A model generated the notes under the pieces. That model was not told the origin of the DNA. It saw only the letters and a list, made by a program, of their open reading frames with translations, and made no database searches. From Agaricus subrufescens (lineage: Eukaryota; Basidiomycota; Agaricomycetes; Agaricales; Agaricaceae), in assembly GCA_029945375.1 (NCBI GenBank), contig CM057062.1, forward strand, positions 310,001-374,000: a DNA stretch of 64,000 nucleotides. Reading direction: 5' to 3'. Within the stretch, counting starts at the first letter, position 1. Every line of letters starts with the position of its first letter. A program made the translations under genes and the position numbers. This document shows positions 26,080-47,099 of the stretch, in pieces.

Positions 26080-26498
26080 TGATGATGATTACGATGATGA
26101 TGATAACGATTTCTTAAAACCGAGAGGAGGAAGGTAATTCTCAATGGTTTTTTTTTTTCTTGGTTTCAGTTTTTTTGTTTTCTTGCGATATCTTTCTTGA
26201 ACGTCTGTATTGTGTCACTCCTTTTTTCTTTCTTTCTTCTTTTTTTAATTTGCTGTTCGTAAGTGCGAAAGGACTTCGGGTAGTAGTGGTAGATGGTATG
26301 TATGTATCTGGGCGTAAAGTCCTGCGTTTTATGTATGTTGTAATTTATACCCGGAGTCTTTGACGTCAGCAGCAAATTTTTTGAGTTGAATAAATGAGAA
26401 GGTGGGAACCGTTTTCCGTGTTCATACCTTCAGATTGCACAACTAGTGATTTCGCATATCCACATTCGTTTGAATCAAATGATCAACTGTTTGTTATC
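26080..26498. other. 3' flank of DENND11-like gene
   Basis: Contains a GAT-rich stretch, then pyrimidine-rich DNA (26148-26250), consistent with a 3' untranslated region and terminator, ending at the transposon insertion site. No gene. Confidence 0.45.
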
Positions 26499-26506
26499 AA
26501 GTACGC
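26499..26506. repeat. Left target-site duplication of KDZ element (aagtacgc)
   Basis: The octamer aagtacgc occurs here and at 41271-41278, immediately outside the inverted termini. An 8-bp duplication is what I recall for Zisupton/KDZ-type insertions. The c before it also matches, so nine bases are shared. Confidence 0.75.
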
Positions 26507-26597
26507 GCATAGGTGATGGTTGAAATACGCATGAGCATCACACACCCGGTTGTCACAACTCCTCACGCGGGGTCGTGTGTCTGACTCTCACGGCCCC
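26507..26597 (+). repeat. Left terminal inverted repeat
   Basis: The inner 52 bp (from ccggttgtcacaactcct to ctctcacggcccc) is the reverse complement of 41178-41229 with one mismatch. The outer 40 bp aligns with gaps (for example tacgcatgagc against gacgcataagc). A conserved inner part with a looser tip may mean the inner block is the transposase binding site. Confidence 0.85.
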
Positions 26598-26639
26598 TAC
26601 ACATTGATAAGGATAATGTAATTAATTAATGGTACCAGA

Positions 26640-28990
26640 GTACTGTGGTACAGTACTCTTAACATAATCATACTCTCTCTGTGGTGGGGACAACAGTATC
26701 ATTGTACTGTATCTCTTCATGGGCAGAGAGTACAATGATACTCTCAGTGTAAGGATGTAATACCATTACTCTCAGTGCAAGGACATGACAGTACTATGAT
26801 ATTGTTATCCCTCAACTCAGAGAGTATGAGTATACTCTCTCTAGTAGGCAATGGCAGTATCATGGTACTATGTAACAGTACCATGATATTGTCACCTTGC
26901 AACACAGAGAGTCTCCCTGACAGGAGACAACAGTATTATTGTACTGTGTGTCGTCATAGGCAGAGAGTACAATTGTACTCTCAGTGCCACAATGTGACAG
27001 TATTATGATATTGTTGTCTTTCAATGCAGAGAGTATAATTATACTCTCCATAGCAGAAGACAGCAGTATTATTGTACTGCATCTTGTCATAGGCAGAGAG
27101 TACAATTGTACTCTCAGTGCCACAATGTGACAGTATTATGATATTGTTGTCTTTCAATGCAGAGAGTATAATTATACTCTCCGTAGCAGGAGACAACAGT
27201 ATTATTGTACTGTGTCTTGTCATAGGCAGAGAGTACAATTGTACTCTCAGTGCCACAATGTGACAGTATTATGATATTGTTGTCCTTCAACACAGAGAGT
27301 ATAATTATACTCTCCGTAGCAGGAGACAACAGTATTATTGTACTGTGTCTTGTCATAGGCAGAGAGTACAATTGTACTCTCAGTGCAACAATGTGAGAGT
27401 ATCATGATATTGTTGTCCTTCAACACAGAGAGTATAATTATACTCTCTGTAGTATGAGACAACAGTATTATTGTACTGTGTCTTGTCATAGGCAGGAAGT
27501 ACAATTGTACTCTCAGTGCCACAATGTGACAGTATTATGATATTGTTGTCTTTCAATGCAGAGAGTATAATTATACTCTCTGTGGTATGAGACAACAGTA
27601 TTACTATACTGTGTCTTGTCATAGGCAGAGAGTACAATTGTACTCTCAGTGCCACAGTGTGACAGTATTATGATATTATTGTCCTTCAATGCAGAGAGTA
27701 TAATTATACTCTCGATAGCAGGAGGCAACAGTATTATTGTACTGCATCTGGTCATAGGCAGAGAGTACAATTGTACTCTCAGTGCAACAATGTGAGAGTA
27801 TCATGATATTGTTGTCCTTCCACACAGAGAGTATAATTATACTCTCCATAGCTGGAGACAACAGTATTATTGTACTGCATCTTGTCATAGGCAGAGAGTA
27901 CAATTGTACTCTCAGTGCCACAATGTGACAGTATTATGATATTGTTGTCTTTCAATGCAGAGAGTATAATTATACTCTCCATAGCAGAAGACAGCAGTAT
28001 TATTGTACTGCATCTTGTCATAGGCAGAGAGTACAATTGTACTCTCAGTGCCACAATGTGACAGTATTATGATATTGTTGTCCTTCAACACAGAGAGTAT
28101 AATTATACTCTCCGTAGCAGGAGACAACAGTATTATTGTACTGTGTCTTGTCATAGGCAGAGAGTACAATTGTACTCTCAGTGCCACAATGTGACAGTAT
28201 TATGATATTGTTGTCTTTCAATGCAGAGAGTATAATTATACTCTCCGTAGCAGGAGACAACAGTATTATTGTACTGTGTCTTGTCATAGGCAGAGAGTAC
28301 AATTGTACTCTCAGTGCAACAATGTGAGAGTATCATGATATTGTTGTCCTTCAACACAGAGAGTATAATTATGCTCTCCATAGCAGGAGGCAACAGTATT
28401 ATTGTACTGCATCTTGTCATAGGCAGAGAGTACAATTGTACTCTCTGCGCAACAATGTGAGAGTATCATGATATTGTTGTCTTTCAATGCAGAGAGTATA
28501 ATTATACTCTCTGTGGTATGAGACAACAGTATTACTATACTGTGTCTTGTCATAGGCAGAGAGTACAATTGTACTCTCAGTGCCACAATGTGACAGTATT
28601 ATGATATTGTTGTCTTTCAATGCAGAGAGTATAATTATACTCTCCGTAGCAGAAGACAGCAGTATTACTGTACTGTGTCTTGTCATAGGCAGAGAGTACA
28701 ATTGTACTCTCAGTGCCACAATGTGACAGTATTATGATATTGTTGTCTTTCAATGCAGAGAGTATAATTATACTCTCCGTAGCAGGAGACAACAGTATTA
28801 TTGTACTGTGTCTTGTCATAGGCAGAGAGTACAACTGTACTCTCAGTGCAGCAATGTGAGAGTATCATGATATTGTTGTCCTTCAACACAGAGAGTATAA
28901 TTATACTCTCCATAGCTGGAGACAACATTATTACTATACTGTGTCTTGTCATAGGCAGGAAGTACAATTGTACTCTCAATGCAGTATCAT
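26640..28990. repeat. Left subterminal array of 133-bp palindrome-rich repeats
   Basis: From about 26990 to 28985 the sequence repeats every 133 bp, some 15 copies; 26640-26990 holds more diverged relatives. Each unit contains four dyads: the perfect palindromes agagtacaattgtactct and agagtataattatactct, plus imperfect ones at cagtattattgtactg and agtatcatgatattgt. A unit is not a multiple of three, and each yields a short minus-strand frame that ends in the next unit; these are by-products of repetition, not genes. Units differ by a few point changes and form sub-types, which suggests unequal crossing-over. Likely roles are transposase binding sites or a hairpin-forming, small-RNA-producing region. 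Confidence 0.93.
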
Positions 28991-29052
28991 GATATTGTCA
29001 CCATTCAAACTAACCAAAGACATAGAATACATATAACAAATGTGTATATATT

Positions 29053-32000
29053 TTACAACCTCAAGATTTTAAGGCGGTTCCAAATTGAAAGAAAGACTGA
29101 TGTATACAAAATTGCTCTATCTTGACCCATGTAACGAAGAGATTTACGAATTTTTGAGAGACCACCATTTCCACATTCTGCTGCACTTGAATTGATTCTA
29201 CCAAGCACTGGTTGTGTCTGAGCATGTGTTTTGAGAAAAAATGCAGTAGAACACCGTGTATGACCTAGTGCATGGAAGTCATCAATGAGGAAAGTGGTGT
29301 CTGCAAAGAACTCGGGTTCTCTTGCTCTGCAGTATGGTGCCAATTGACATGCAAAGTCATAAATCACATACTTTGGAGCCTTGGGCCAACGTGTAACAAG
29401 AGCTGAAAAAACATCATTGCGGCCCTCACTTTCAGGAATAAAATGAAAGCCATAGCAAACAGTGTGGGTGCACCATGCAGCCATTATCCCTCCTGTCAGC
29501 CTTTTCTCACCATATTCATTGTAAAACTTGTTACACAAACCACCTCGCTCCTTGGGCTCTCTTGAAACATCACTTGGCATATTTGGATATTGAGGTCGAT
29601 GTCGTATTTGTGGAAAGCTATACTTGCAGCCACTCTAATAACAAAAATCAGAATGCCAATATAGTCTCAAAACAGTAATAAAAAAACCTTTTTCCAACCA
29701 CCATCAACAATAACATCACAATCAACTTGAATTGGAAGGGGCCCATCATGATTGATAGAATTGTAGAGGACATCTTCAACTCTTTTCCTGATCCATTCGA
29801 AAGCCACCAGCAGTTCACTTGAGAACTGGTTATCGTGAGTCCACTGATAATTAGCTAGGTGATAGAGTGAAGGAATTGGTGAAAGTTTGTGCAAGGTAGC
29901 GTGAGATGGAGTGTCGAGAAAAGATTGTAGAGCTTTCAATCCTGGTTGATTAACCACCTGCAGGCATGACTCATTTGCTGCAATCTGATCATAAGTTAGA
30001 TAACATACATCACAAAAACTAAAATAGAAAACCTTACCTGCAAGAAAAACTTTCGAACCTCAACTGCAGGCTCACCCTTCATCTTAAGTTGCCAAGAACC
30101 ATAATAGTGGACCAAAAGATGCTTTAAACCTTCACATTTTTCACCAATCAGTTGAATTGCTTCTTCAACCTCACGAAGTTTTTGAATTGTTGTATCAATG
30201 ATACTCATATCGATCGTTGGATCAATTTCTGCCTATGTTTCATGTTCAAAACAAGCCCCAAAAATGAAATTAAAAGACTTACATTGTTATTCTTGGAGAG
30301 TACATTCTGAAGAGAAAGAGGTGCACCCATTACGGATGAAAGTAACTTCCTCAAATGAACAGTTTCAATAAAGGATTGGTTTTTCGGATAATGGCGGTCC
30401 CGAACAAGAGCATCGCGATGTTTCGAAGTGGGTGGGTAAATTGAATCTAGAACCTGCTTTTTGTTATAGGCCAACGTAACTCCATCCCAGATCACTGTCT
30501 CCGGAGTAGGCCCACATCGGGGGCATACCAAGTCATTAGAAAAATCAAGCAACTCCACATATCCAAACCACACACGCCGAAACACAGATTCCTCAACAAA
30601 TGAAGGTGCTGCAGGTCTGGACCATTTGTGGTATCTTCTAACGACGAGTTTGATCCATGCACTGAATGGGGTTTCTGATGAAGTGAAGGCAGAAGTATAC
30701 TCGTCGAGCAGATCATGGGAAAAGAGCAGTGTGTTGTTGTAGTTTAAAATACCAAGTTCACGGCAGTCGGGCCCTATAGCTTTGCTTGGATAACGAAGGG
30801 ATAGGCAATTAGGGCATTTCTGAAGTTGGATATGAGTCGAGAGAGGTCGGAGTAATGTAAATACAGTGCATGGTTTCACAAAGACATCCGAGCCTGGAAT
30901 AAACGGATGGCCACACTTGCAGCGACCGGCCTGTGTCAATGGAATAAGATTTGGTATGCTTTCGACTGGCGGAGGCTCCTGGTAAAGCACACGATCTGAT
31001 GGCAGGCGCGCCCAGTCGGACACCATCAGAGGTAAATGCGAGACACAAGTATGGCTGCCCTTAGTAGCCAACGAGTGAACGGGTTCTGACAACTTTCAGC
31101 ATACCATGTTTGACGAGTTATATCCTGAGTCTCACCTGTTACGACGATACTGTAGTCATGGCCTCCGTGGTTCGCCGTGAGAAGTTGGCCTAGGTAAACC
31201 TGGCACTTCGCTATATGCGCGCAGTGGTTGCTTCCATCTCGCGAGCATCTCCAGTTCCCAAACCCTGTATCGGCACCCACATAGGACACCACAGCTCTGT
31301 TCTTCGCTATGGAAGGCAAACCCTCAACACAAACTGAGAAGAGGTTGATCCAGCCGTCGTCGACAACATCCCTCCATAACAATATCACGGGTTCGATTGG
31401 ACCTTCGTATTCCAATAAGACATCGTAAGCCCAACAAGAAAACGGCACAAACCTTCTGGAATCAAGCTATTCAACGGTCCCTCTTCACTCAGGTAACGTT
31501 GGTGAACGCATTTCCCTTTTTCTTTTGCGGCGGGACAGTGACATACGGGAAAGACGTCCCCGCTCTCGCTTCGATCCATCTGAACATGATACCAGTATTG
31601 CTGGGGACTAGTCAGTATAAGGAACAGGATGCAGGTGTGCACACTCACCGTTCTCTTTGCCGATTTGGAATCCCAACCTGTAACCACATAGAGTTCCGGA
31701 GCCAGTTGGTAGAAGGGTATCGCCTCCGCCATTACAGCTTCGGCGAAAAGTTCGTAAGCATCCGTGGTGACGCTTTCGTCCGGTGGTGAGAGTATCCCCT
31801 CGGGACCCAACTCCCAACTTTCTATCTCATTGTCGGGAGAGTCCAGGAATAACGCCCCCCCAGCATCTTCATAGCTACCTTCCGTATGCGAATCAGGCAA
31901 CACTCTGGCTGGCCTCTGCACAACTTCCGCCACGATGGTCCGATTGGAGGGCTCCCGTGCGTCAGACGATGGCCTTGAACGAATGGAAACGTGTAGGCGC

Positions 32001-32137
32001 CGCTTCTTCTGAGGTGAAGGATTTGGCATGGTTTCTGGTGGCACTGCAGTACTGATTGGTACATCAGGAGGACGTTGAAGCGTTATATGAACGCTAGGAG
32101 GAGGCGTCATGAGGCGAGGAAGTTTTGAGCCAGGCAT
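29053..32137 (-). CDS. KDZ transposase with SWIM-like and Cys-cluster domains
   Basis: Catalyses cut-and-paste movement of the surrounding element. Seven exons (32137-31649, 31600-31453, 31402-31136, 31085-30283, 30232-30038, 29984-29688, 29634-29053) join in phase to 926 residues. The N-terminal 120 residues are basic, Pro/Ser-rich and disordered. A SWIM-like zinc motif follows (C183-H-C185 and C194-V-H196), then NWRCSRDGSNHCAHIAKC and GRCKCGHPF...CPNC, the cysteine clusters typical of basidiomycete KDZ proteins. CPRCGPTPETVIWDGVTLAY leads into the KDZ catalytic core at about 640-926. Candidate RNase H-fold acidic residues are D826 (IYDFACQL), D851/D852 (IDDFHALGHTRC) and E886 (NSSAAECGNGG). 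No stop or frameshift interrupts it. The start is the first in-frame ATG; the frame is open 17 codons farther upstream without an ATG. Confidence 0.92.
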
Positions 32138-32259
32138 ATCACTGAGGGAAGATGAGATGCTTCTACGTGGCAACCGTGCCGAAACCACAGTACTCAGATA
32201 CTCAACTCCTTTTACAGCTGACTATCTAATTCAAAGTTCTATACTTCACGTCACCTTGC
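32138..32259. promoter_or_regulatory. Divergent promoter between transposase and Cys-cluster gene
   Basis: 122 bp separate the minus-strand transposase start from the proposed plus-strand start at 32260, so one control region probably drives both genes. No TATA box or known site is obvious. Confidence 0.45.
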
Positions 32260-33484
32260 ATGGCACCCGCTCGGAACAAAAGATCGAGCCAACGTCCCAG
32301 ACCAACTCAAGTGGCACCGTTACCGTCAACTCGGGCGCCCTGACGATGCCACAAGTGCCCCGGTATGCCGTTAAAGTCGACGTGTGGCTGTTCGAAGCGA
32401 CACGTCATTGCCCCCGGTGCTGAGGTCCGTCGCATTAAATCTTGTTTGTAACCCCCCTGATTCCTTCCTCGCGTAATCAGAGCAATGGTGCGGTCAGTGT
32501 CAGCGCCCTGACCGTTCTGCCAGTTGGGACTGTGTCGATTCCTGTGCGTGGTAGCCCCTGAAATATTGTAACAATAGACTTATTCAGGTCGTAGGAAACC
32601 TTACCTACGAGTGTTGGTCCTCTGCCACCATCACTCGAGAATCCTCAAATTTGGAGGCATACCGCCACGGAACCCAACGCTGCCGCCACTAATCACCTGG
32701 ACGTCATCGATCCGGCTCTGTTGGAGCAATCAGATACATCGCGTGCCAGCCCGGTGGCTGAGGTGGGAGAGCTCGAGAATGAAAATGCAGATTGGGCAGA
32801 CGAAGGCCGCGAACAGGACGCAGTGCAGCAGGGCAGAGTTACCCGGCTTACCACTAGGGAGAAAGCCGCCAAGTTTGGTATTGTCGATGGTGTGATGAGA
32901 GGCAACACGGTTCACAGTGAGTTGTGGTATCTTTTCATCCGTATAGAAGGCTTATTATGTATTGTAGGAATAGTGCGACAGAACGAAAAACGACAACCTC
33001 TCACCGATGCTTCAGCCGCGACCACAAGATACAATCGCGAGTTACCTTTAATTATCTCCCGAGTTAGACTACATTTTCTTTGCATAGCATGATGCAACCT
33101 TTGACATACTTTGACGACCAGGCTGAAAGGCTGGCGCTTGAGACCGACGCTTACGTCCTGGTCCTGGCACAACAAGCAACGGGATCTTCGGCTGCCATCC
33201 ACTTTGCCTCCGACCGAATGAGGAGGGACGCGTTTGACCAATGCGGACACCTCGTGAATCAATTTCAATCCTTAATGACGCAACTGGTCATTGCCAAACG
33301 GACAACCGCATTTGCTCTCGCTCAGAACCTCAAAGCTGCGGAAAGGGCGCGGGCAGAGGCAGAGGAAAGGCTCGTGGAGAGGGAGAATGTTTTTGCGAAT
33401 ACTGAAGCGGTGTTGGTGGCATCGGAGAGCGCCAACCAGACATTACTGGCAGAGTTAGAGGCCCTTAAAAATAGTAAATCCTAG
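32260..33484 (+). CDS. Transposon-borne Cys-cluster/coiled-coil protein
   Basis: I do not recognise the family. A five-exon model (32260-32310, 32356-32424, 32483-32550, 32612-32926, 33088-33484) gives 299 residues. After a basic N-terminus (MAPARNKRSSQRPRP) comes a cysteine cluster: C18, C27-G-C29, W-C43-x2-C46, C57, C61 and C63, a likely zinc-binding fold. A Pro-rich linker, an acidic stretch (VGELENENADWADEG) and TTREKAAKFGIVDGVM follow. The C-terminal exon is a heptad-like coiled coil rich in Ala, Glu and Arg (LKAAERARAEAEERLVEREN). The C-terminal 240 residues are convincing; the first three short exons rest on splice phase and cysteine spacing alone. Its place inside the element and its divergent promoter with the transposase suggest a DNA- or transposase-binding partner. 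Confidence 0.6.
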
Positions 33485-33754
33485 AGCCCTCACCGTATCA
33501 ATTAGCATGATCTAATCACTTGGTATCTGATATTTATATACATCATGCTATTCGTGCCATTTCTAATCATGTGCTCTATCGACTATGTCTTTCTATTCTT
33601 GCTCATATGAACACTCAATGATATGGAATGCGCGATCAGTACTACTTAGGCTCTACCATATCATTGTTTACTTGAAATAACAATAGAATGTCTATTTTCG
33701 AGAAGGCAGACTTATCTTATTGATGGACATTGACTTGATCGCAAATGACAGTGA

Positions 33755-33954
33755 GAATGGGGTGTGTGATTGTGTATTTCATTGTCGTTTATTGAGATTA
33801 GTGATAGGGACTCAAGGAGATCCGTAAGATCTCGTGCGTGGTATTAGAAGTGATGAATGGGGTGTGTGATTGCGTACTTCATTGTTGTTGATTGAGATTA
33901 GTGATAGGAATTCAAGGAGATCCGTAAGATCTCGTGCGTGGTATTAGAAGTGAA
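33755..33954. repeat. 100-bp tandem duplication
   Basis: Two copies start at 33755 and 33855 (gaatggggtgtgtgattg), differing by only a few substitutions across 100 bp. Each contains the short dyad agatccgtaagatct. It is a recent local duplication inside the element. Confidence 0.85.
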
Positions 33955-34693
33955 GTCAGCAATCGACAAGCAGCACTTCAAACCCGGGTCAGTCGTCTAT
34001 GCTTAGAACAGCGATGGTAGGCGCACTGCACGACCTTTGCCAAGAGCCCGAGCAGATGCTCTAGCAACATACGGATGACTCGACATTTTTAAGGGAGCGA
34101 TCGGCGTTATATGGTCAATAATATAAGCAACCGACAGGGCGGCTGCCACTATAACTTGGTGGTTCAATCATCGAGTATGCGCTCACTAGTGTGTCGGTAC
34201 ACACGTGTATTGACCGATGGTATTTCTAGTCATGGTGTACTGTTGTGCGGCTGCTTCGGATAACGATAACTAGGAGGCTGTATATGGGAATAAGGGGTGA
34301 GGCTCGAAAAGATGGAACTTACGAACCGATGCGTAGTAGTAAATTCGTAGCAGGCAAAAACTTATCAGGGTGCGCCTACAAATGGCTGATCTGCGGTGCT
34401 TGTACACTGAAATTCAACGAAATAAATCTTCAAGGAAAGGAAGAGGAAAGGGTGTCGCTATCGGTGTATCAACATGACCTCGCGCGAGGACCGCGGAGTA
34501 ATAACGTGTATTGTTGGAGGGATAGTAGACCTTGCATAGTTATCATAACCCTAACCCATTGGCAAGAGAAAGTATCACAGTATCATAAAGACATGCGAAG
34601 TTACAGCACACGATACACATTGGTAGAAGATGACACATAATTATTTGACTTGATACAGGCAATCGTACTTATGAAATGATAACTATCTACAAA

Positions 34694-34744
34694 GACTTAG
34701 AATGTAGACTGGTGGGGATCCGCCACCAATCTACATTCTAAGTC
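34694..34744. repeat. 22-bp inverted repeat (hairpin)
   Basis: The arms 34694-34715 and 34723-34744 (outer gacttagaatgtaga) pair at 21 of 22 positions around a 7-bp ggatccg loop. It could be a cruciform or RNA hairpin, or the trace of a small palindromic insertion. Nothing around it is coding. Confidence 0.8.
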
Positions 34745-36790
34745 AAATTAAGAATAAATTACATAGGCAGCAATGTTACTACAGGAAGCAAAGGTAAACG
34801 GAAATGAATCATGCACAAGACGAACTATTTAAAATACTGCTGGTTAGCTTAAAATTGCTGACACAAATTAGTCTAACTTAGCTTGTGCGCGAGTTTGACC
34901 GCAGTCGATCCATTATCGTGAGGAATAGGACTACCAGAGAAAATTGGTCAAGTAATCAGTAAAGGGTGTATGGTTCGTAGATAACGGGAGACTCACCGGA
35001 GTTACAGACCGGAATAACTGAGCCTGGGGGATAAAATGACCAAACGTCTATACATTTGAATAAGTCAATCGAAACCCTTTCACGCGGCACATTGAAATAA
35101 GTCAATTGAGTACCTTTCACGCGGTATGGCAGGAAATAAAACTGCTCAAAGCGAAGGTAAGAGACCGGCCGCACGTGAGAAAATTGTCAAAGATCAGCTT
35201 ACCGTGTATAAACCGATGACGCGTAGAATCCCTGTACGCACAGTATTTTTAGTAGAAAAGGTCGCATCTAGTAATGAAAATAGCTTACCATACAAAAGCG
35301 CAGTATCAAGCGTGACTGACAAACGGTATAATAAAGAAACTGATGTGCAACGGTGATCAAGGAAAGGGATCGGAGCATGGAAATGACGAGAGGGTTACCG
35401 GTGACGAGGACTCTGCTTTGTGCGTTACCAACTGAAACGCTGTCATACAAAGTATTTCAAGATATTAATCTGAGCACGAGGATATTGAACGGCACACCTT
35501 TGAGGAAAGAATGAAAGGAAGGCCCCGTGAAGTCGCGCAAAAAGCCCCCAGTCCCCAAGTCTCACAATGAGACATATCCCTCCGGTGCAGCGCACGCATC
35601 GTTGCCGATGAAAGCGGTTGACAAGTGGAGGTAGGCGGCATATGCCAACCATGTACCTTCGCATCGTGCTTGAAAAAGCGGGATGGGTGAAGGGAGTTCC
35701 AAACCTCTTTGCCCGTGGCCGACCCGCGCGAGATCTCCGTGTCACTCGTTGCATACCGCGGGCACTTGGCAATGCGCTAAGTTCGACGTTGACCAAGGTT
35801 GAAGACGGCAGAGGAGAGGAAACTAAGCGTGAAAAAAAGGTCACAATCACCTTATATTCACTTGATGGCAACGCTGATAGGGGGACAAAGATCTTGAAAT
35901 TGAATACCTGCGGGGATATTATTTGATTTTCGAGTATATAGCGCGTTTTCACCTGTTAAACTCCTGGATACTTGAAGGGAGGATCTTGAGGGAGGATCTT
36001 GAGTTAGCGTTGACAGACACAACCTTGAGTGGTGGTGAGTTTTGCTAGAGGAAGGAAGGGAGAGGGAAGGATTCCTGTCGGTAGAGGATGGTGCTGGTCG
36101 AATCGTACGATGGCAAACGTTGGCCAAGCAATACCAAATATGACAATTGACACGGCACCCCTGTAGAACGTGCACACGGTCTCTACAACGTGCACATGGT
36201 ACCCCTACTCTCAGTTGCTCCTATCATAGCGAATATATAGGAACAAGGGTGCAGTACCATAGTACTGCCCCTACACCATTCCTCTCCCCGCCACTCAATC
36301 AGTTCTCTCCCCGCCGTTCAGTCGACTCTCAATGATCATGAAGAAGGATTATCAGCCCGCCTCCTTATGCTCCTCTGCCAGCGCCTCTAATCAACAAGTC
36401 CTTGATTCTTCATGACGTCTTGCACATGCCGATTCCTCTCGTATCCCCTGACCACAAGAGTATGGCAGCAACCTCAGTTCCACATGTATGAACGTTTCAG
36501 GTACCGTATGTCCCCTATCAAATTTTACAGATTCGGCTTACCGTTCTCAACAGCACCAGGACGGTTAGTGTATCATTGGCCGCCGTGGCTCTTAAAATTG
36601 GCTGCCGAATTCTAGATGACAAAATCGTTCCCGGCATCAGAATTGCAATACTATTCCTGTGGTCAGAATTGCAATATCGTGCCGGCCGCAGAACTGTGTT
36701 ATCGATCAGACACCTCCTACACAGTACGGAAAATGGTATATATACGAAGGGAACTTCATCTGGCATTTCTCAATCCCTTGATAGCCAAAT

Positions 36791-39267
36791 ATGGACGACG
36801 GTAAGTAAAGAAATTCGAGCAAAAATGATATATACTAATCTTACCGTAGAATTGAATTCTCTTCAGCAAAAGGTTGATCAGGCTTTGGCAGTCGTGGCAA
36901 AGCTCGAGGCGGAAAAAACTGGTCTCGAGCAAGGCACAGCTCGTCGAGGGGCCACAGGTAAATGACTTGTTTTCGTCAATTCTTCATTCTCTGACAAGCT
37001 CTTTCCTCTCCTCCACTCCACCTCCACCCTCCCAGCCAAAATAGCAAAATTGCAACGTCGTATTCAGATAGCGAAATTGAACCAGGGTAAAGCGGAGAAA
37101 AAGCTGAAGGATACCTTAGTAAGTATCTTTTGGGTTGTATCTTCAGTCACTAACCTTTTTAAATAATAGTCTTTGCACGGACAGACCCTGCCGCAGACTG
37201 CAGACGATGTTCAGTCGGAAGACACAAACGTTGCAGAGCCGACATCGATGGTATGTTGCTATTCTTTGATGTTTGCGACTGCACAACTAACTTCATTAAG
37301 ATCAATATACCTCCTTTGGACATGGTTGGCGAAGGAATGGACCCGTCTTCAACGGTGTCCAACGTGGCCGCTGATAGCGCTGCACCACCGGAGTCTGCGA
37401 TCGATCCTCAGCTCTTGTTCACAGTTAGCGAGCCTTCGTTACCCCTCGAGCCGCCCACTACATCACCTCAGGCAGTACCTGAAACAGTGGGTCCCCTGAA
37501 TGCTCAACTTATTGCTCCCGGTAACCCAACTGTTCCGGCGTCGCCGTCTCCGCGTCTCTCTGGGCAGCCCTCGAACACCTTCAAGCGTATTGACAGTGGC
37601 GAGGACGACGAGGGGTCCGCTCCCGATCCCCCAACTGTTCCGGCGTCGCCGTCTCCGCGTCTCTCTGGGCAGCCCTCGAACACCTTCAAGCGTATTGACA
37701 GTAGCGAGGACGACGAGGGGTCCGCTCCCGATCCCCCAACTGTTCCGGCGTTGCCGTCTCCGCGTCCCTCTGAGCAGCCTTCGAACACCTTCAAGCGTAT
37801 TGACCGTAGCGACAGCGAGGACGACGAGGGGTCCTTGGCCAAGAATGGAAATATGTCTCTGATAACAACAGAAGATAGTATGTAGTTTGAATACCTCGAA
37901 GTCTTATGATGACTCACCTTTGTGATAGAAACAGAACTTCAACAGCAACTATTTGAGAGAAGGTTTTCCGTGGCCCAACCGCCTAAGAAAAGTGAGTTCC
38001 TTATGGATCAGCTATATATGCTTCAATGCTAATGATGGACTTTAGGGACCAAATACGTCGAGGTGTCCAATGACACTGGTAGTGAAGGAGATCCGGATAT
38101 TTTCGTCGACGAGGATGATGTCAAAGGCTCAATGGAGAAGGCCGGTCCGGCCAAGCCCGAGAAACAGATCAAACCTCCTGTTGCGGCACAACCTATGCCT
38201 CGCCCGACTGCTAACGATGTACAAGGATCCAAGGAGGGTACTATCTCAAAGGGAAAAGGTCGTGATGCGGCGGAGGGTGGGAAAAGGATGCGCGGAACTG
38301 TCTCAAAAGGAAAGGAGGTCTTGAGGACCAAAGATGCGCCTGAGGTGTTGGGGCCGAAGCAGGGTGCCAAAGATAAAGGCACTAAGGAAGGTGAGATAGC
38401 AACAATCATCTGATCAGCTACAGCTATCTAATCTCTGACCTCCATTTATAGACTATCACGCCTCCGAATTTTCCGTCGCCAAGGCTGCTCGTGTATCTAA
38501 GACATTGGCCGACCAAAGAACCCGGTTGGCAAATGAAGGTACTGTGATATTTTCCCTAAAATCTATCTGCCACTGACGTGGCGAGTGCAGTTGCTCACAG
38601 GCAGTTCGCTAAGGATTGGGTGAATGCACGATCCAAGGCGGAACGTCCACCACTCCCTCCCGGTATTGACCTTGTTCGATTCGACCCGGACTATCTTCCC
38701 GACGTCGCAACTGCTGATTACGATCTTGCTATCGAGTTGCTGTTCAATAACAGCAACAATTACCTTTGCATTCCTCATGTCAGATTGGACCGCAAGCTCG
38801 TTTCACACATCGACAATCTTGAGGGGCCTGTCAAAATTCGGGGGATAGAATTACCCCAAAATCAGAACCCTAACATCAAATCGGAGATTCCTCGCCCCCC
38901 TAAACATTTCCATTGCGGTTGCCATGAGAAAGTCGCCCTTGCCGGTTTCGTCATGTGGAAGACATGGACGGCCAAAACTGTTATTAACGGGCAGATGGTC
39001 GAAGAAGGGCTCCATAAGGATAAACCGTTCTCACCTCGTCAAGTTCTATTTATCTTGCAATTTTTAAAATCAATGTTTGGTTTCACCGTCAAAGATATGT
39101 TTATAGGTTCCGCTGATGACGATGAGGGTAGGAGAAAGAGAGCTCAGTTAATGAGGAAGGTGTCGGATCACTGTAATTATTCTCACTATGAACTTATAGG
39201 AGAAATAATCCCTGCGGATGAACGCATTCCGGTATTGGAAGAAGAACTGGAGGATGAGTGGATTTGA
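36791..39267 (+). CDS. Transposon-borne 676-aa protein of unknown function
   Basis: I do not recognise the family. Nine exons (36791-36800, 36850-36957, 37036-37118, 37170-37250, 37301-37877, 37929-37991, 38046-38390, 38452-38538, 38591-39267) join in phase from MDDELNSLQQKVDQ. The order of parts is: N-terminal coiled coil (about 1-65); a Pro/Ser-rich disordered region with three 35-residue repeats (about 170-275, motif SNTFKRIDSGEDDEG); an acidic then Lys-rich tract (SKGKGRDAAEGGKR); and a globular C-terminal domain of 225 residues with FDPDYLPDVATADYDLAIEL, HFHCGCHEKVALAGFVMW and FSPRQVLFILQFLKSMFGFT. The globular domain is encoded by one large exon. All junctions keep frame, so the gene appears functional. 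Its constant company with the transposase would mark it as an accessory mobility or silencing factor, but this is inference. Confidence 0.8.
37528..37842 (+). repeat. Three in-frame 105-bp coding repeats
   Basis: Copies start at 37528, 37633 and 37738. The first two are nearly identical; the third has drifted and has a short DRSDSE-type insertion. Each encodes 35 residues with a Pro-rich half and an acidic half. Because the unit is a multiple of three, expansion keeps the frame. Confidence 0.92.
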
Positions 39268-39439
39268 TGCATGGGTATGTTTGTTCACCTACTAGTATTA
39301 CGTTTATCACTAACAATCCTTGACTGCAGTCATTTATCGTTAGTTTACGGTGAACTGAGGAGTATCATTATATACTGTTTCAGTACTTTTTTTGTTTGAA
39401 TTAAATGACTTTGACTTGTGTTTGCGACAACCAGCTTGA

Positions 39440-41160
39440 CTGTACATATTATTATTATGACAGTACTATTGTACTGCTAGTTGAACCTAGTGCGGTACTG
39501 CAGTACTCCGACAGGGACAGTGTTGATACTCTCTATTGAGTGCAGGACAATACTACAGTACTGTCATGTCCTCGAGAGTGAGAGTAATACTATTATTATT
39601 TATTATGACTCTCACTCTGTAGGACTGCAGTACTATGCTGCACTCAATGGAGAGTATCATGATACTCCCATGTGTAGTACTACAGTATCGTGGTGCCTCA
39701 ACATTAATACTCTACGTGCTGAGGCAAACGCAATATGATGATACTACTATGCACTCAACATGTTAAATATATACTTACTCATGTAGTACTGCAGTACTAT
39801 TGTGCGCTCAACAGTATCACAATATCCTACCTGCTTGAGAGGGAGAGTACGTTGATACTCTCGCCGCCAGTTCACCATAGTACTGTGGTACTGCGGAAGT
39901 AGAGTACCGAAGTACTCTCCTCTCCGATGCGCTATAGTACTGTGGTACTAAAGAGCGAGTATCAAAGTACTCCCTCAGCCATTGTGCATTAGTACCACAT
40001 TACTACCGCCAAGAGTACTTTGATACTCTCGCCTCTAGTGCACCATAGTACTGTGGTACTAGAGAGGCAGAGTATCAAAGTACTCCCTCTGCCATTGCAT
40101 GATAGTACCACATTACTACCACCAAGAGTACTTTGATACTCTTGCCTCCGGTGCGCCATAGTACTGTGGTACTAGAGGCAGAGTATCAAAGTACTCCCTC
40201 TGTCGTTGTATGATAGAACCGCGTTACTACCACCAAGAGTACCTTGATACTCTTGCCTCCAGTGCGCTATAGTACTATGGTACTAGAGAGGCAGAGTATC
40301 AATGTACTCCCTATGCCGTTGCATGATAGTACCACATTACCACCACCAAGAGTACTCTGATACTCTTGCCTCCAGTGCGCCATAGTACTGTGGTACTAGA
40401 GGCAGAGTATCAAAGTACTCCCTCTGTCGTTGTATGATAGAACCACATTACTACCACCAAGAGTACCTTGATACTCTTGCCTCCGGTGCGCCATAGTACT
40501 GTGGTACTAGAGGGAGAGTATCAAAGTACGCCCTCTGCCATTGTATGATAGTACCACATTACTACCACCAAGAGTACCTTGATACTCTCGCCTCCGGTGC
40601 GTCATAGTACTGTGGTACTAGAGAGGCAGAGTATCAAAGTACTCCCTCTGCCGTTGTATGATAGTACCACATTACTACCGCCAAGAGTACTTTGATACTC
40701 TCTCATTGGGTGCACCATAGTACTCTGGTACTATATGTGGAGAGTACATCGATATTCTCTCCGCAGGTGCATGGTAGTACTGTAGTACTACCGTAGAGAG
40801 TACCATAATGCTTCCCCCGCTGAGGGTGCCACTGTATCTTTTGACTACAATCACCTGAGCATATAGGATATCATGATACCGCACCAAGGGCGGGAGTACT
40901 ATAGTACCATTGTTGATTAATCGCCTACAGTATAATGATACTCCTCGCGTGTGTATGAGTATTATGATACTGTGGTGTCTCTCTCGTGACAGTAACATAA
41001 CTCTTCCTGCTCTTTGTGGGACAGTACCCTGATACTCTGCCGTACAGTATCACAATACTCTTTGCAGGAAACCTTTGAATATCAAGGTATATCAAGGTAC
41101 GTCGTGACACTCTCCACATATAGATTTTCGAGTACTACTATCCTGAATACTACAGTACCG
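39440..41160. repeat. Right subterminal array of about 112-bp palindromic repeats
   Basis: From about 40020 to 40700 a unit of 111-113 bp repeats (gtgcgccatagtactgtggt landmarks at 40151, 40262, 40375, 40486 and 40598), with more diverged copies on both sides. Each unit holds dyads of the type agtactgtggtact and agagtactttgatactct. The unit is unrelated in length and order to the 133-bp left array but uses the same building principle: densely packed palindromes centred on gtac or gatac. Confidence 0.9.
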
Positions 41161-41176
41161 TGCAGCATCCGTATAT

Positions 41177-41270
41177 GGGGGCCGTGAGATTCAGACACAC
41201 GACCCCGCGTGAGGAGTTGTGACAACCGGTCGTGCGAAGCTTATGCGTCATTCGACCGTCCCTTGCCCCC
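41177..41270 (-). repeat. Right terminal inverted repeat
   Basis: Mirror of 26507-26597; the core 41178-41229 matches the left core at 51 of 52 bases. The outer 40 bp runs to the target duplication with gapped similarity. Confidence 0.85.
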
Positions 41271-41278
41271 AAGTACGC
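41271..41278. repeat. Right target-site duplication of KDZ element (aagtacgc)
   Basis: Exact copy of 26499-26506, directly outside the right terminus. Confidence 0.75.
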
Positions 41279-41371
41279 TTAATCAGTATGTGTGCTGAAA
41301 GCTTCTGGATTACAAAATGGATTTGAATTTCAATCTACACCGTGACGTTTAATATATTTAAAAACGCTGAA

Positions 41372-41745
41372 TTAGGAAACAGGCTTCTGTGCGATGAATG
41401 CACAATATCCGATATAGGTTCCTGGTGTAGCTTCACACCGCTTTGTAAGGTCCTCGACAAGAGCATCGTATTCCTCTCCGCTTGACACCAAACCCAGTCC
41501 ACCCTCCTGCCAGGCCCTTTGATGGCGGGAAAGAAACCCATGGCAGCCTTCAATCCTCTGATGCCATGTTCACCTGCCCAAGAACCCATTGGAAAATCCC
41601 GTTTATAGACGGTAATGTTTATGAAACCAGTTTCCTTAAGCCAGGATTGAAGATGGTCGGTAATATCCACCACAACATGTCGGAATTGGTGGGAAAATCT
41701 ATCTCTGATCATCCATGCGGTGTGGTCCCGTACTTCATTCAATGA
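41372..41745 (-). pseudogene. Truncated, frameshifted methyltransferase copy
   Basis: Only the 3' third of a methyltransferase like those at 42-48 kb remains. It begins at VRDHTAWMIRDRFSHQF, runs through VVVDITDHLQSWLKETGFIN and FPMGSWAGEHGIRGLK, then loses frame after AIKGP. A 4-bp deletion relative to the relatives explains this: the next frame resumes with EGGLGLVSSGEEYDALV and ends CAFIAQKPVS. The SAM-binding half is absent. It lies about 100 bp from the right end of the KDZ element. Confidence 0.9.
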
Positions 41746-42326
41746 ACTTCAAAGATAATAGCAACTCAGGCTCTTGACCACAAAATTGCTAGTGTCTCAC
41801 TCTAATACGATGCCATTATCTGCATGATGTCGAATATCCGTGACTAAATCAGCATGAGTCTCGCAACTTCTACCTGACTTCTACGTCTTTATCTTCCTTT
41901 ATGATCGGATTTGTTGCAGGGCAATGTCAATTTGACAGCTCTCATGCTGGAGATGGGCAGTTTAAAGAAACGAAAAGCGACTATCATATGGATCCGATTC
42001 AAGTGCCGATAGGCAAAGTCGGAAGATTGCCTTTGAGTCGTCTGCCCCGAACGGCATTATTAGGGCAAAGCGCTAGAGGGCTCATTCGTAATAAGCGAGT
42101 CGCCGGGTCGCGCCGGAGCCAGAGCCAGGGGAAACGTTCACGGTTCATCGAGCAAAATAAAGTAAGCCAAGAGTTGTGCTAGGTACTATATGCTTTGTGT
42201 CCTCCTGCCAAGACTCCCACCAGACCCTCACTTCTTGTGTTTAAAGCGTCTAAGGCCTTCATTTCTCATAGAGCACGCTCGTTATTCAAAGGAAAAATTA
42301 TGCATATTTGAAAAGTAGTGGCTAGA
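41746..42326. other. Gap without recognised gene
   Basis: Only a short plus-strand frame (41901-42182) without motif. Probably worn-out DNA between duplicated methyltransferases. Confidence 0.4.
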
Positions 42327-43336
42327 CTAGACAATAGGCTTCTGTGCGATGAATAGGTAGTACTCAACATAGCTTTCGGGAGTCGTATTGCAACGCGTCG
42401 TAAGGTCATTTACTAGAGCATCGTACTCCTCTCCATTAGATACTAAACCTAATCCGCCTTCTTCTAAAACAGGACCTTTAATGGCAGGAAAAAAATCCAT
42501 CAGAGCCTTCAGTCCCATGGTGCCGAGTTCACCGGCCCAAGAGCCCATCGGCAATACCCGTTTATGAACCGTCACATTAATGAAACCACATTCTTCGAGC
42601 CATAATTGGAGGTGGTCGGTGATGTCTATGACAACATGTCGGACTTCATGGCAAAATTTATCCCGGATCATCCATACTGTGTGGTCCCGGACTGCTTTTG
42701 AGGGCGATTTGACTGCCTGAGCGAGTTCGAAGAGTTGGACATATCCTCCTGGGATGAGGGTCCGATACATTTCGGACAGTGCAGCTTTCCATTGAGGAGC
42801 CTGAAGTGCAACCACCAAGAGGCGTTGGTTGATGAGAGTAAACATATTACTCCAATCATTGGGAAGTGAGGTGATAGAGTTTTGGGTAAAGGTTATGTTG
42901 GAAGGTGGATTTGACGGGAGCATCCGAGTCGAGATATCAACCCCGCGAAGGTTGATCGTCGGACGAAGTTCCTTGGCAAGAGAGAGCAACCAATGGCCTA
43001 AATTTCATCTATTCGTTATTTACGACTTGCGCACTTGAATCGAACACATACCCGAACCCGAACCACTTTCAAGAATAGTATCTCCGTCCTTCAAAGTTAC
43101 GGGTGCCCATATGAGTTTATTACCAAAACTCTGGTTTATTGCACAACTTTGTCCATCGAGGCTTGGGACAACAGACGAAAGCGTAAGCTATTAACTTGTT
43201 ACCACCAAAAAGTGTCTCACCGTTGTCTTTCTTCATCATCAGCCGGAAGCAAGTATTTGTAGTCAGAATTCTCTGAGACATAGTATCTTGCCGAGTGGAT
43301 TTCGGTAGGCAGGATGGGGGAAGCAAGTTGTGACAT
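42327..43336 (-). CDS. SAM-dependent methyltransferase, copy 1
   Basis: Class I methyltransferase with a Rossmann-like fold, broadly related to fungal LaeA-like and small-molecule methyltransferases; the substrate is unknown. Exons 43336-43221 (116 bp), 43161-43052 (110 bp) and 42997-42327 (671 bp) give 298 residues. Motif I (DTILESGSGSG) closes exon 2 with its last Gly split by the intron. RGVDIST follows as the acidic loop that binds the ribose, then SNITFTQNSITSLP, and YRTLIPGGYVQLFE corresponds to post-motif III. The C-terminus is GPVLEEGGLGLVSNGEEYDA then LFIAQKPIV. The N-terminal ARYYVSENSDYKYLLPADDE is shared by all copies. It is one of three intact tandem copies, all on the same strand. 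Confidence 0.9.
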
Positions 43337-43899
43337 GACTATTGGATTCGACAGATGTTCAATACCACGACTTTATAAAGTAGGTTGAAGGGTCGGTTAG
43401 AAGTGGATGTAATTTCAGGACGGTGTATCCATCATTCAAGCCGCTCTACCTGTACATACGATTTCATGGATTACATCTCGCCCTGAAGACTACGGACATT
43501 CGAGCTGCTCTCCTCTTCAGAAAATGATATTGGTTTACATCATACCCTTGACGCTGGGCTATAACGTGGCGCGGGTGTGATACGGAAGGCCTGAGAACAG
43601 GGTGTGGATGCCAAGAAGTGTAGCGAGGCGGAAGTTATTATTAACGTTTGTGAGGGCATTGTCGGTGCAAAGCTCAAATCACATAATTAATGTCACAGCG
43701 ACTCGGCTATCTTTATGTAACATTATGTCGTGTCGGGGACGCCGACCGATTATCTGTTTGTTGTTACATACAGAATAAAATCACATACAAACCAATTTAC
43801 GCTCAAGATGACGTGCATTTGGACTTTGATTGAACCACAAAGAACAATCTCAATGTCGTTCTTAGCGCTTCATTAGTCAACGCTATATATAGTTTGAGG
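43337..43899. other. Gap up to hAT-like element
   Basis: Promoter side of methyltransferase copy 1 plus unassigned intergenic DNA. No gene seen. The last eight bases (gtttgagg, 43892-43899) are the left target duplication of the element that follows. Confidence 0.45.
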
Positions 43900-44573
43900 T
43901 AGTGTTGTGCCGTTCCTGAACGGTTGATGAACTTCGTACTAATATAGTTCATCAACAGTTCATGAACCGTTCATATGCGCATGAACTTGCCTATGGCAGC
44001 AGTGATTATGTACAAGTAGAAAAAGCCAATATAAAACACGCAACCTGGCAACAAAATAAAAGTTTTCGGGCCAGCTCATTGAGTAGAATAATGTGTCTGG
44101 CTTGTCATTCATATCAGCATATAGCCGGTCAGCTGAATGCGCCAATCACGAATAAGGATTAGGTCAAATACTAGTAATCTATAACCGCTTGCTTGGATTG
44201 TCGTTCCTTCCTGTGTTCAAGTCTACTCTTTTGTTACTCCTAACATAGCCATCAAAACATTCTTGGCGTCGTAGCGTATGGTTCGAGATTTTCACCGTTG
44301 CTTACATGCTATACAATACGCTTTGCAATAATACAGTAATTAATCAACATACTTTGCCTGTGGTATACAGCTGATGAAGAGACAATGGTCTACCCTTCTA
44401 GACAGTATTTTGTTCGTATTTTCATGCGTGAGACACTGACATCATATGGTTCACGATGGGACTGATGGTTCATCGAACGTTCATCGTTCATCACTAGTTG
44501 ATGAACGGTTGATGAACGGTTCACTAACAACCGTTCATGAACGCTCCTGAGGTTCATGGACCGCACATCACTG
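43900..44573. mobile_element. Non-autonomous hAT element, 674 bp
   Basis: The left end tagtgttgtgccgttcc and the reverse complement of the right end (cagtgatgtgcggtcc) match the hAT-type CAGTG terminal consensus. The flanks are gtttgagg (43892-43899) and atttgagg (44574-44581), an 8-bp target duplication with one change, as expected for hAT. Subterminal regions on both sides are crowded with direct and inverted copies of ttcatgaacgg and gttgatgaacgg, which look like transposase binding sites. There is no transposase frame, so it depends on a partner elsewhere in the genome. Confidence 0.85.
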
Positions 44574-44581
44574 ATTTGAGG

Positions 44582-44944
44582 CTAAACTGTTTGACGTAAT
44601 TGTCATGATCGTTTTTGAACTTAACGTGCCGACAACCCGTTTCCCAGTGCCGTAGGTGGTATAACATCATGGTGAAGGAGGTCTTGGAAACGAGTAACTG
44701 TTTTTAGTCTTAACAGACAGGAAAGACGCAAGGCAGCGTGATACCTACTACCACGAGGAGATGCACTTCTCCCAGATTTGGGCTGGATGTAAATGAAGGT
44801 AAGTGTCCTCTCAGATCGGCTGATATTGCAGGCGCATAGCGTATTGTACAGCTATATTATTCTTGCTTTGGGAACCCTTATTTTCTCCCAGAACATCTTT
44901 TTCGTTATCACAGACCTTACGTACAAGCAGTTTTACACAACCGA
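44582..44944. other. Gap without recognised gene
   Basis: About 360 bp of 3' flank of the next methyltransferase copy. Nothing identifiable. Confidence 0.4.
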
Positions 44945-45950
44945 TTAGACAATAGGCTTTTGCGCGATGAATGCACAGTACTCGATATAAGTCTCAGGTG
45001 TAGCTTCACAACGCTCTGTAAGCTCATCGACCAGACTATCCCATTCCTCTTCGCTAGACACCATACCCAATCCACCTTCCTGCATAATCGGCATTTTAAG
45101 GGCGTGGAAGAATTCCATGCATGACTTCAACGACCGAGCGCCGTTTTCACCTGCCCAAGACCCCATAGGCCATCCTCGCCTATGAATCTCCACATCAATG
45201 AATCCACATTCTTCGAGCCAGGCTTGAAGGTGGTCATTGATGTCCATGACTACATGTTTGACTTCGATAGTTAATTTATTTCTCATAAAAAATGCTTTGT
45301 GCTCTCGGACTTCTTTTGAAGGTGATTTGGTTTGATGAGAGAGTTCGAAGAGTTGTACGTATCCCCCTGGTTTTAGTGTTCGGTACATTTCGGACAATGC
45401 AGCTTTCCATTGAGGGGCTTGAAGCGCAACCACCAAGAGGCGTTGGTTAATTAGAGTGAATGTGTTACTCCAATCCTTGGGGAGAGATGCGATAGAGTTT
45501 TGGGTGAAGGTTATGTTGGAAGGTGGATTTGAAGGGAGCATTCGTGTAGAGATGTCGATGCCCCGAAAGTTGATTGTAGGAGGAAGTGCCTTCGCAAGAG
45601 AGAGTAGCCAGTGACCTAATTGTTTGCTTGTTATTCAAGACCTTAATGCCCTTAAATCAGATGCGCACCCGAGCCGGATCCACTGTCGAGTAGGATGTCA
45701 CCATCTTTCAAAGTGACTGGCGCCCATATAAATCTGTTGTCAAAAATCTCGTGAACCGTCCGACTCTGCATGTCGAGGCTGGGTACAAGAAAAGCGTAAA
45801 TTACGGACTTCTAAATCAGCGAAAGGTATCTCACCGCACTCTCTCCTCTTCATCAGCGGGAAGCATATATTTATGATCAGAGAATTCCGAGACATAGTAT
45901 CTTGCTGGGTAGGCTTCAGCAGGCAAGGTGGGGGATTCAACCCGTAACAT
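44945..45950 (-). CDS. SAM-dependent methyltransferase, copy 2
   Basis: Paralogue of copy 1 with the same exon lengths (45950-45835, 45778-45669 and 45615-44945: 116, 110 and 671 bp) and 298 residues. It reads ARYYVSEFSDHKYMLPADEE, then motif I as DILLDSGSGSG split by the second intron, FRGIDISTRMLPS, LVVALQAPQWKAALSEMYRT and LKPGGYVQLFE. It is closest to copy 1 through the middle but has changed in the part likely to form the substrate lid (HKAFFMRNKLTIEVKHVV and IHRRGWPMGSWAGENG). That pattern fits divergence in substrate after duplication. No disabling change is visible. Confidence 0.9.
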
Positions 45951-47099
45951 GACTGGGTTATTGGGTTCGACAGATGTTTAACAACCTGTCTTTATAAAGT
46001 GGGAAGAGTCAGGGCGGGAAATTTTAGTACCGGTACCACGTGGATTGAATATCATAGCTTTACTTGCGCACCAATGGCGAAGGGAACTTACGGGTCACTT
46101 CTTACTCTGGAGATCAAGAAGTACATTACATCACTGTAACACATCCAGATCTGTTTCACCGGCATCACCGATAATGTGGGTTTAAAGTTCAGACGTCCCC
46201 ACACTATCGATTCTTTTGAGACTGACAGTGCGGAGAAGGAAGACCAAGAGCCGAGCGTATCAACCATCTCTAAGTGCGAAGCATGCGAAGAGCTGCCGTT
46301 GTCTGAACAACGTATTGATTTACGTATTCTGGCCCAATTTGTCACTCAGAGACACCATGTACTACACGGCGTGTAGTTTCTGAAAATTGATCAGCCCGAG
46401 CGCTGGCTGCAAAGATAATCTCCGCTTACACCCACAATCATGCGGTTATTTAAGTGTTCCTGGAGAATATATCTTTTCTTTTTCCTCCTCGTTTGGTGTT
46501 GATGGACAACTGACAGATGGTGATTCAGTGGTATACTTTCCACAGCCCTGATAGCACATGACATGGACTCACTTTGATGATACCATATTCCTATACCGGA
46601 GATACGCCACTTCCACCTGAAGAAATCGGGAAGACGGTGGAGGAAGGGGTGCTTGCCAGGACTGTACTAGTCTTCAGGTCCTGACAGCAGCTCCCCCGGG
46701 GTATTCATAATAACCGTCTTAAGTACATAGTCGATCACTCGGATTGTGATTGACTGTCCTTCGTGTTTCTAGCAATGTCACGGTGCAGCCAGATAGTCTT
46801 CTCGAACGAAACACTGTCCTCGGAGTTGAACCGGCTTTAATTTTAACCGGATGGTAAAATTATTCCCACGGATTTGTATGTCACATACTCATGATCAATG
46901 AAAAGAAACAACGGGAGAAGTCTCGACCCCGTTTAGAACGTGGAGTGAAAGACAAATAAGATAAGATTCCTTGTTTACATAGTAATTCAAATTACTCGTG
47001 GGTGAGAAGAGATTTGAGGGCCAACCACCCGTGGTAGCGCAGTGACTAGTACATGATACCAACTTGAAATATCTATTAAAATTTGAACATACGGCGCAA
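45951..47099. other. Gap without recognised gene
   Basis: About 1.1 kb between methyltransferase copies. A 66-codon plus-strand frame (46176-46376; KCEACEELPLSEQR) shows no family match. No repeat or RNA gene recognised. Confidence 0.4.

Follow-up and report, generated by a model that had tools for sequence, protein, structure and literature searches.

How a KDZ transposon recognises its own ends is, to our knowledge, unstudied, and the question is raised in a concrete form by a locus in the mushroom Agaricus subrufescens. The 64,000-nucleotide stretch that we analysed (assembly GCA_029945375.1, contig CM057062.1, positions 310,001 to 374,000; hereafter the window) corresponds to 310001-374000 of contig C6 in our searches, which covered a genome of 44.65 Mb in 44 contigs. 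It carries a bounded KDZ element with a transposase, two further genes and a repeat array just inside each end. We consider it probable, though by no means settled, that this is a full-length KDZ DNA transposon of an abundant three-gene lineage whose arrays are bound by an element-encoded dimer that would assemble or regulate the ends. The patterns that lead to this reading are a palindrome common to the two arrays, its persistence among relatives and the constant company of the three genes.

The element and its boundaries

The element occupies 26506-41269 of the window (14,764 bp) and is flanked by the 8-bp duplication CAAGTACG. Its terminal inverted repeats align across about 93 bases, and their cores (26546-26597 and 41178-41229) are identical at 51 of 52 positions, just as an earlier note, made from the letters of this DNA, had described them. 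Nine bases match in the two flanks (CAAGTACGC), which leaves the register of the duplication ambiguous from the window alone; it is fixed by the starts and ends of three other copies. These are copy 2 (C5:2459243-2473740), copy 3 (C5:1554384-1568752, on the other strand) and, at a greater distance, an element on contig C3 (C3:166242-180679), all of which start with CGCATAGG or CGGATAGG, end with CCCC or CCC, and are flanked by perfect 8-bp duplications of their own (GATCTCAT, GGTTATAC and AATCCATC, respectively). The sequence aagtacgc, which had been proposed as the target duplication, is indeed present on both sides, but its register was off by one base. In all, direct 8-bp duplications, a length within the 7-8 bp of the KDZ superfamily, were found at four of the five end pairs examined (the window, copy 2, copy 3 and C3), and for the remaining matches to the ends in the genome one end only was seen. 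Three other elements that share the ends, each with its own duplication, give good support to a complete KDZ transposon with defined boundaries; the note had made the same claim and had named copies with ends elsewhere or without duplication as what would refute it.

At the fifth end pair, on C8, the flanks are inverted and there is no direct duplication. We had considered these facing ends, 3.3 kb apart, as a non-autonomous derivative and rejected the idea because the stretch (L013, C8:378000-384000) is itself an inverted repeat, with arms of about 4 kb that are about 90% identical, within which the two KDZ ends face each other. We also searched both flanks of the window element for the empty allele with a single aagtacgc that the note had proposed as a check, and found none in the assembly, since the left flank is single-copy there. 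With the right flank we obtained three paralogous stretches nearby and nothing more; at 41370-47471 this flank begins a family of local host sequence with three further stretches at 71-74% identity. In the intergenic middle of the element, a short inverted repeat at 34684-34757, with a 94.6% identical copy at L014:507-580, is possibly a nested small element.

One palindrome in two different arrays

The presence of two distinct arrays had already been reported and is confirmed here, but the palindrome that they share had escaped notice. Despite the different units of the two arrays, AGTA-N6-TACT underlies both. The element has 87 copies of it, of which 49 fall in the left array, 35 in the right and three between the arrays (one of these at the edge of the right array), and the other 49 kb of the window have none. 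Among all 256 four-base arms, with spacers of 0-12, it ranks first in the element, and first-order Markov resampling of the element gave a mean of 0.3 occurrences and a maximum of 2. A longer form, GAGAGTA-N6-TACTCTC, has 180 occurrences genome-wide, and its reversed pattern has none. At 10 bases, or about one turn of the helix, the distance between the two half-sites fits what is expected for a symmetric dimer. The arrays also differ in base composition: the observed/expected ratio of CpG is 0.11 in the left array (26620-28990), with TpG/CpA at 1.57, as compared with 0.88-0.98 in the flanks, and 0.58 in the less depleted right array. The left array resembles in this respect the product of past CpG methylation.

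The same organisation was examined in relatives within the genome, by sampling about 1.5 kb from the gene at loci around 14 of the 38 transposase exons (left flanks) and 12 of the 51 gene 3 matches (right flanks). Clusters of 5-37 palindrome sites are present in ten of the 14 left and in all 12 right flanks, and among 498 successive steps sampled, 187 are of 34 bp and 77 of 33 bp (264 together), with 63 more near two or three times that length. To avoid conditioning on the motif, we then took the consensus units of a repeat finder: the top unit holds the motif in all ten left arrays (eight exactly, two with one mismatch) and exactly in 11 of the 12 right flanks, as compared with 0.003-0.15 near matches on average in shuffled top units. 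The units themselves vary: one is an AT-rich 133-mer, another a 34-mer that contains AGTACGGCGGTACT, and a further 34-mer, on C10, contains AGTAGAATTCTACT. At one end of a distant sister element on C10, 33 of 36 steps are exactly 34 bp, and in a sister element on C1 steps of 34 bp make up 18 of 25 and 25 of 36. Relatives with different units keep the arms of the palindrome, often at a step of 33-34 bp. The positions of all features in the window are given in Table 1.

Table 1. Features of the KDZ element in the window (positions count from the first letter of the window).
Feature	Position	Strand	Remarks
Target duplication, left copy (CAAGTACG)	26498..26505	.	Register set by three other copies
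Left terminal inverted repeat: 52-base core preceded by 40 outer bases that match imperfectly	26506..26598	+	
Left subterminal array; 133-bp unit of three exact and one near palindrome, 49 exact sites	26695..28974	.	Steps mostly 33, 34 or 66 bp
KDZ transposase, 7 exons, 926 amino acids; SWIM-like N-terminal region, CxC4, KDZ domain	29053..32137	-	
Gene 2, 5 exons (32260-32424, 32481-32543, 32595-32916, 32968-33062, 33122-33484)	32260..33484	+	Interrupted in window copy
In-frame TGA of gene 2, directly before the cysteine cluster	32341..32343	+	
Gene 3, 9 exons, 676 amino acids	36791..39267	+	Pfam: nothing over the cut-off
Right subterminal array; units of about 111, 224 and 335 bp, 35 exact sites from 39481 and one at 39462	39462..41059	.	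Steps mostly 33 and 22-24 bp
Right terminal inverted repeat	41177..41269	-	
Target duplication, right copy (CAAGTACG)	41270..41277	.	

The transposase and its two companion genes

The splicing of the transposase given in the earlier note, with six GT-AG introns and a full-length product, was recovered unchanged. When the protein was compared with the Pfam models, as the note had advised, KDZ (PF18758) scored 28.4 bits for the whole protein and 32.7 bits for the exon (cut-off 26.6), and CxC4 (PF18717) matched above its cut-off with an E-value of 2.4e-42; the resemblance of the N-terminal region to a SWIM zinc finger was judged by eye. We found 164 relatives at E<=0.001 among 5055 candidates, and the names among the matches listed are ones that we take to be Agaricomycetes; the best relative found is from Agaricus bisporus (73% over residues 150-926). 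Conserved residues of the catalytic domain are in place: the last exon agrees with 13 aligned relatives at the invariant columns, for instance at the D in YDFAC and at the E in ECGN, an alignment result that does not say which residues are catalytic. In each of the three other copies the reading frame is open and every internal GT-AG site is preserved; dN/dS is well below 1 (0.18, 0.17 and 0.10), values to which no significance test is attached, and the dS values of the C3 copy (above 1.6) are saturated. The KDZ model has 94 matches in the genome, 87 of them above the cut-off, and the superfamily is strongly expanded there, in several lineages.

For gene 2, an alignment of six copies led to a model of five exons, which we spliced for the window, copy 2 and copy 3. 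The first exon encodes a C-x2-C-P-x2-P-L-K-S-x-C-x-C cluster with basic neighbours, and the C-terminal region of the product was read by eye as a coiled coil. The cluster pattern is present in copy 2 and in the C3, C1, C2 and C6 79% elements; copy 3 has a stop inside it, and the pattern is missing from the C10 element and from the window, where a stop lies within it. Under this family model the in-frame TGA interrupts the gene, and the claim of the earlier note that all three genes are intact does not hold. The window copy is probably unable to make the full-length gene 2 protein, which would need to be supplied by another copy, although it may avoid the TGA through another start or splice form; uninterrupted copies exist elsewhere in the genome. 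In A. bisporus, protein P0124 has the cysteine cluster of gene 2 and is the annotated match to the five-exon model, and in three other gene 2 models of that species the cluster is absent or different. The best relative found for the copy-2 product also comes from A. bisporus (49% over 96% of the length), and a Pfam scan of this product gave no family above the cut-off.

The third spliced gene announced by the note, gene 3, does yield a product of 676 amino acids, and a Pfam scan of it returned nothing above the cut-off. The N-terminal part appears by eye to be a coiled coil, the middle is of low complexity with 35-amino-acid repeats, and a conserved C-terminal domain has 34 invariant columns in an alignment of 13 sequences, among them C59, H105, C108 and C110. 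Outside this genome there are three relatives among 3288 candidates, all from A. bisporus, the best of which is 67% identical over residues 420-676. In the three other copies dN/dS is 0.28, 0.26 and 0.23 (again with no significance test); the frame is open in copies 2 and 3, and the automatic alignment of the C3 copy shows a frame break and one unmatched acceptor in the low-complexity part. A 105-bp in-frame tandem repeat (2.8 copies) lies at 37514-37812, and copies 2 and 3 have shorter reading frames (607 and 640 amino acids).

Genes 2 and 3 had been described as cargo in the earlier note. Searches of the genome with the last transposase exon, the gene 2 exon and the gene 3 domain gave 38, 40 and 51 matches, respectively, and the 51 include halves of split matches. 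Around the 38 transposase loci, gene 2 lies within 8 kb at 36, gene 3 within 20 kb at 35 and both at 35, as compared with 205 of 10,000 random positions on six contigs with both genes near; at one of the three misses (C6:740177), the gene 2 match is just past the distance limit. In a sister lineage, whose transposase exon is 73% identical, gene 3 stands on the opposite side of the transposase: the gene order has changed and the company of three genes is retained. In A. bisporus, a gene 2 relative carries the next locus tag for two of the three gene 3 relatives (AGABI1DRAFT_130798/130799 and Agabi119p4_10713/10714), while for the third (AGABI2DRAFT_140058) none of the four gene 2 matches is adjacent.

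Because both genes are near at 35 of the 38 transposase loci, the reordered sister lineage included, we regard genes 2 and 3 as belonging to the element: they are recurring partners of the transposase and not cargo. That they were captured from the host would agree with their having no Pfam family above the cut-off, with the passengers that KDZ elements can bear, such as TET/JBP genes (PMC12730594, in the passages on which we draw), and with the additional gene seen in four sampled relatives, F-box-like in the one that we scanned. Against these points stand the constant neighbourhood in this genome and the two A. bisporus loci at which relatives of both genes are neighbours, and we consider such a capture very improbable. 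The additional gene, which stands beside the transposase on the side of the left array at L044, L041, L043 and L046 (C1:1826386, C2:413301, C1:1763164 and C2:988245, respectively), is itself a possible case of real cargo; the L046 product weakly matches an F-box-like model (PF12937, E 5e-4, below the cut-off).

How the ends may be recognised

We propose that the terminal inverted repeats are where the transposase cuts, and that it would insert the element into a target staggered by 8 bp. The arrays would be bound by a second protein that the element encodes, as a homodimer with one monomer on each AGTA half-site, and this dimer could coat both ends, draw them together and perhaps regulate or shield the element. 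Gene 2, with its basic four-cysteine cluster and probable coiled coil, is our first candidate for the array binder, a choice that we make tentatively; gene 3, whose domain has cysteine and histidine residues, and the transposase itself, with its zinc-binding regions, are both doubtful candidates to the same degree. In a more specific form of this proposal, end recognition would have two components, the transposase at the tips and a dimeric zinc-cluster protein from gene 2, with gene 3 as its partner, that coats the phased palindromes. The arms, and in most lineages the step of 33-34 bp, would be under selection and the bases between them would turn over, which would make the scaffold independent of the sequence of the unit. 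This form is plausible, and we hold it with less than even confidence.

Tandem repeats can expand without selection, and the arrays could simply be passive minisatellites, grown by slippage and gene conversion in an ordinary KDZ transposon, with a palindrome that is ancestral and has no role. They are tandem and variable in copy number and in unit, and the CpG depletion of the left array fits decay. We nevertheless find this reading unlikely, as the arms, and often the step, are kept while the rest of the unit differs between the two 34-mers and the AT-rich 133-mer, and the left and right units of the window element differ and yet carry the same arms. Alternatively, the arrays might bind a host factor or draw host silencing through DNA methylation or small RNA, and not a protein of the element. 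The CpG and TpG/CpA values of the left array are like those of methylated repeats; on the other hand, the right array is less depleted, and one would not expect arms and spacing to persist in a silencing target, which makes this explanation in our view more unlikely still.

Several observations weigh against binding of the arrays by a protein of the element. The arrays can arise by slippage, and a repeat under methylation or in decay would account for the CpG depletion on the left no less well than a working site. Single sites form a large background to the palindrome, with 3188 occurrences genome-wide compared with 1278 for the reversed control, and in the window the right array alternates steps of 33 bp with steps of 22-24 bp and has no steady 34-bp step. 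Among the relatives, no site was found in four of the 14 left flanks, where an extra gene lies in the 1.5 kb that we sampled, and the flank counts are not independent, since they include near-duplicates (such as L026/L027 and L023/L024). The two top-unit mismatches on the left (L038 and L039) each alter one arm base, and in one right flank (L030) the top unit is without the motif. The same is true of the four longer stretches taken from the C10 and C6 79% elements, in three of which the second unit holds the motif, the motif-free units lying mostly outside the arrays; moreover, the C10 element has just 10 sites at its other end and the C6 79% element just 19 exact sites. As to the candidate proteins, the first exon of gene 2 has a stop in two of the seven copies checked by eye or pattern (the window and copy 3), and the predicted structure of the gene 3 domain has a mean pLDDT of 37.8, unusable for a fold search.

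Age of the insertion

Near-identical ends and open frames had been taken in the earlier note as signs of recent movement. The closest copy found is 90.5% identical across the left 7.4 kb and 79-92% in the other main segments, with a synonymous divergence (dS) of 0.11 in the transposase and 0.18 in gene 3, and in copies whose segments are 67-92% identical the end cores match each other equally well. We therefore rejected the similarity of the ends as evidence of recent movement. Eight loci of the sister lineage with the 73% identical exon have identical last-exon scores (C3:3506355, C4:51588, C6:740177, C8:1396255, C10:692262, C10:1433988, C36:192124 and C38:38796), which suggests a recent amplification and is a better sign of one than the ends of the window element.

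Comparison with known systems

The element itself belongs to a known kind, the KDZ transposons, and the organisation of its ends is a new variant. Its closest published parallels are KDZ1, KDZ2 and KDZ3 of Cryptococcus neoformans, which are bounded and were seen to move (PMC12810828; this and the other papers are compared here in selected passages). They likewise combine a KDZ transposase and a cysteine cluster with terminal inverted repeats and 8-bp duplications (4-8 bp in KDZ2 and KDZ3), and at about 9-11 kb they can be likened in length to the window element. Bounded KDZ elements have been published together with their movement; the note had called fully bounded copies with cargo seldom described in detail. 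The Cryptococcus elements differ in having inverted repeats of 139-241 bp and a CxC1 cluster, whereas here the repeats are of about 93 bp and occur with CxC4 and two companion genes. The passages of PMC12810828 compared here do not mention subterminal arrays, of which the window element has two.

The Zisupton, Dileera and Kyakuja families of fungi share the KDZ transposase with our element, and the Dileera family described in PMC12730594 also shares the 8-bp duplications. Kyakuja, in contrast, has a 7-bp duplication, CA..TG ends and no inverted repeats according to the same passages, features that are not those of the window element with its 8 bp, CG..CCCC ends and long repeats. Mushrooms commonly carry KDZ elements: fourteen Zisupton and four Kyakuja families are recorded in A. 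bisporus (PMC7473861), and in Marasmius oreades KDZ and Plavaka account for about half of the DNA elements (PMC8290104); a study of M. oreades also characterised a KDZ inverted-repeat motif in a supplementary figure that lies outside this comparison. Some KDZ families bear TET and carry a dioxygenase gene (PMC12730594), none of which is seen among the three proteins here: no TET/JBP match to Pfam was obtained in the spliced transposase, in gene 3, in the copy-2 gene 2 or in ten scanned open frames. We found no description of the palindrome arrays or of the gene pair among the top-listed papers on KDZ elements and subterminal repeats, a search that did not extend to the founding Zisupton and fungal KDZ/TET papers, so that absence from print is not established.

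In outline, the organisation recalls the plant En/Spm, or CACTA, elements, which have terminal and subterminal repeats and encode a second DNA-binding protein, TnpA, beside the transposase (PMC2613891). There, TnpA binds the subterminal repeats and is required together with TnpD for transposition, and the subterminal motifs differ between families (PMC2613891, in the passages used), whereas binding in our element is proposed from sequence. CACTA elements belong to an unrelated transposase superfamily with CACTA ends and 3-bp duplications (PMC2613891), neither of which occurs in the window element, and the long palindrome arrays set the latter apart; the parallel, as an analogy, is functional and is not a sign of kinship. 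If our reading is correct, KDZ elements would, like CACTA elements, be a superfamily in which a separate protein serves the subterminal arrays, and such a protein could help to explain the length of these elements. A compact motif whose arms are fixed and whose step recurs, present in many copies of a single genome beside three candidate proteins, makes end recognition in KDZ elements directly testable.

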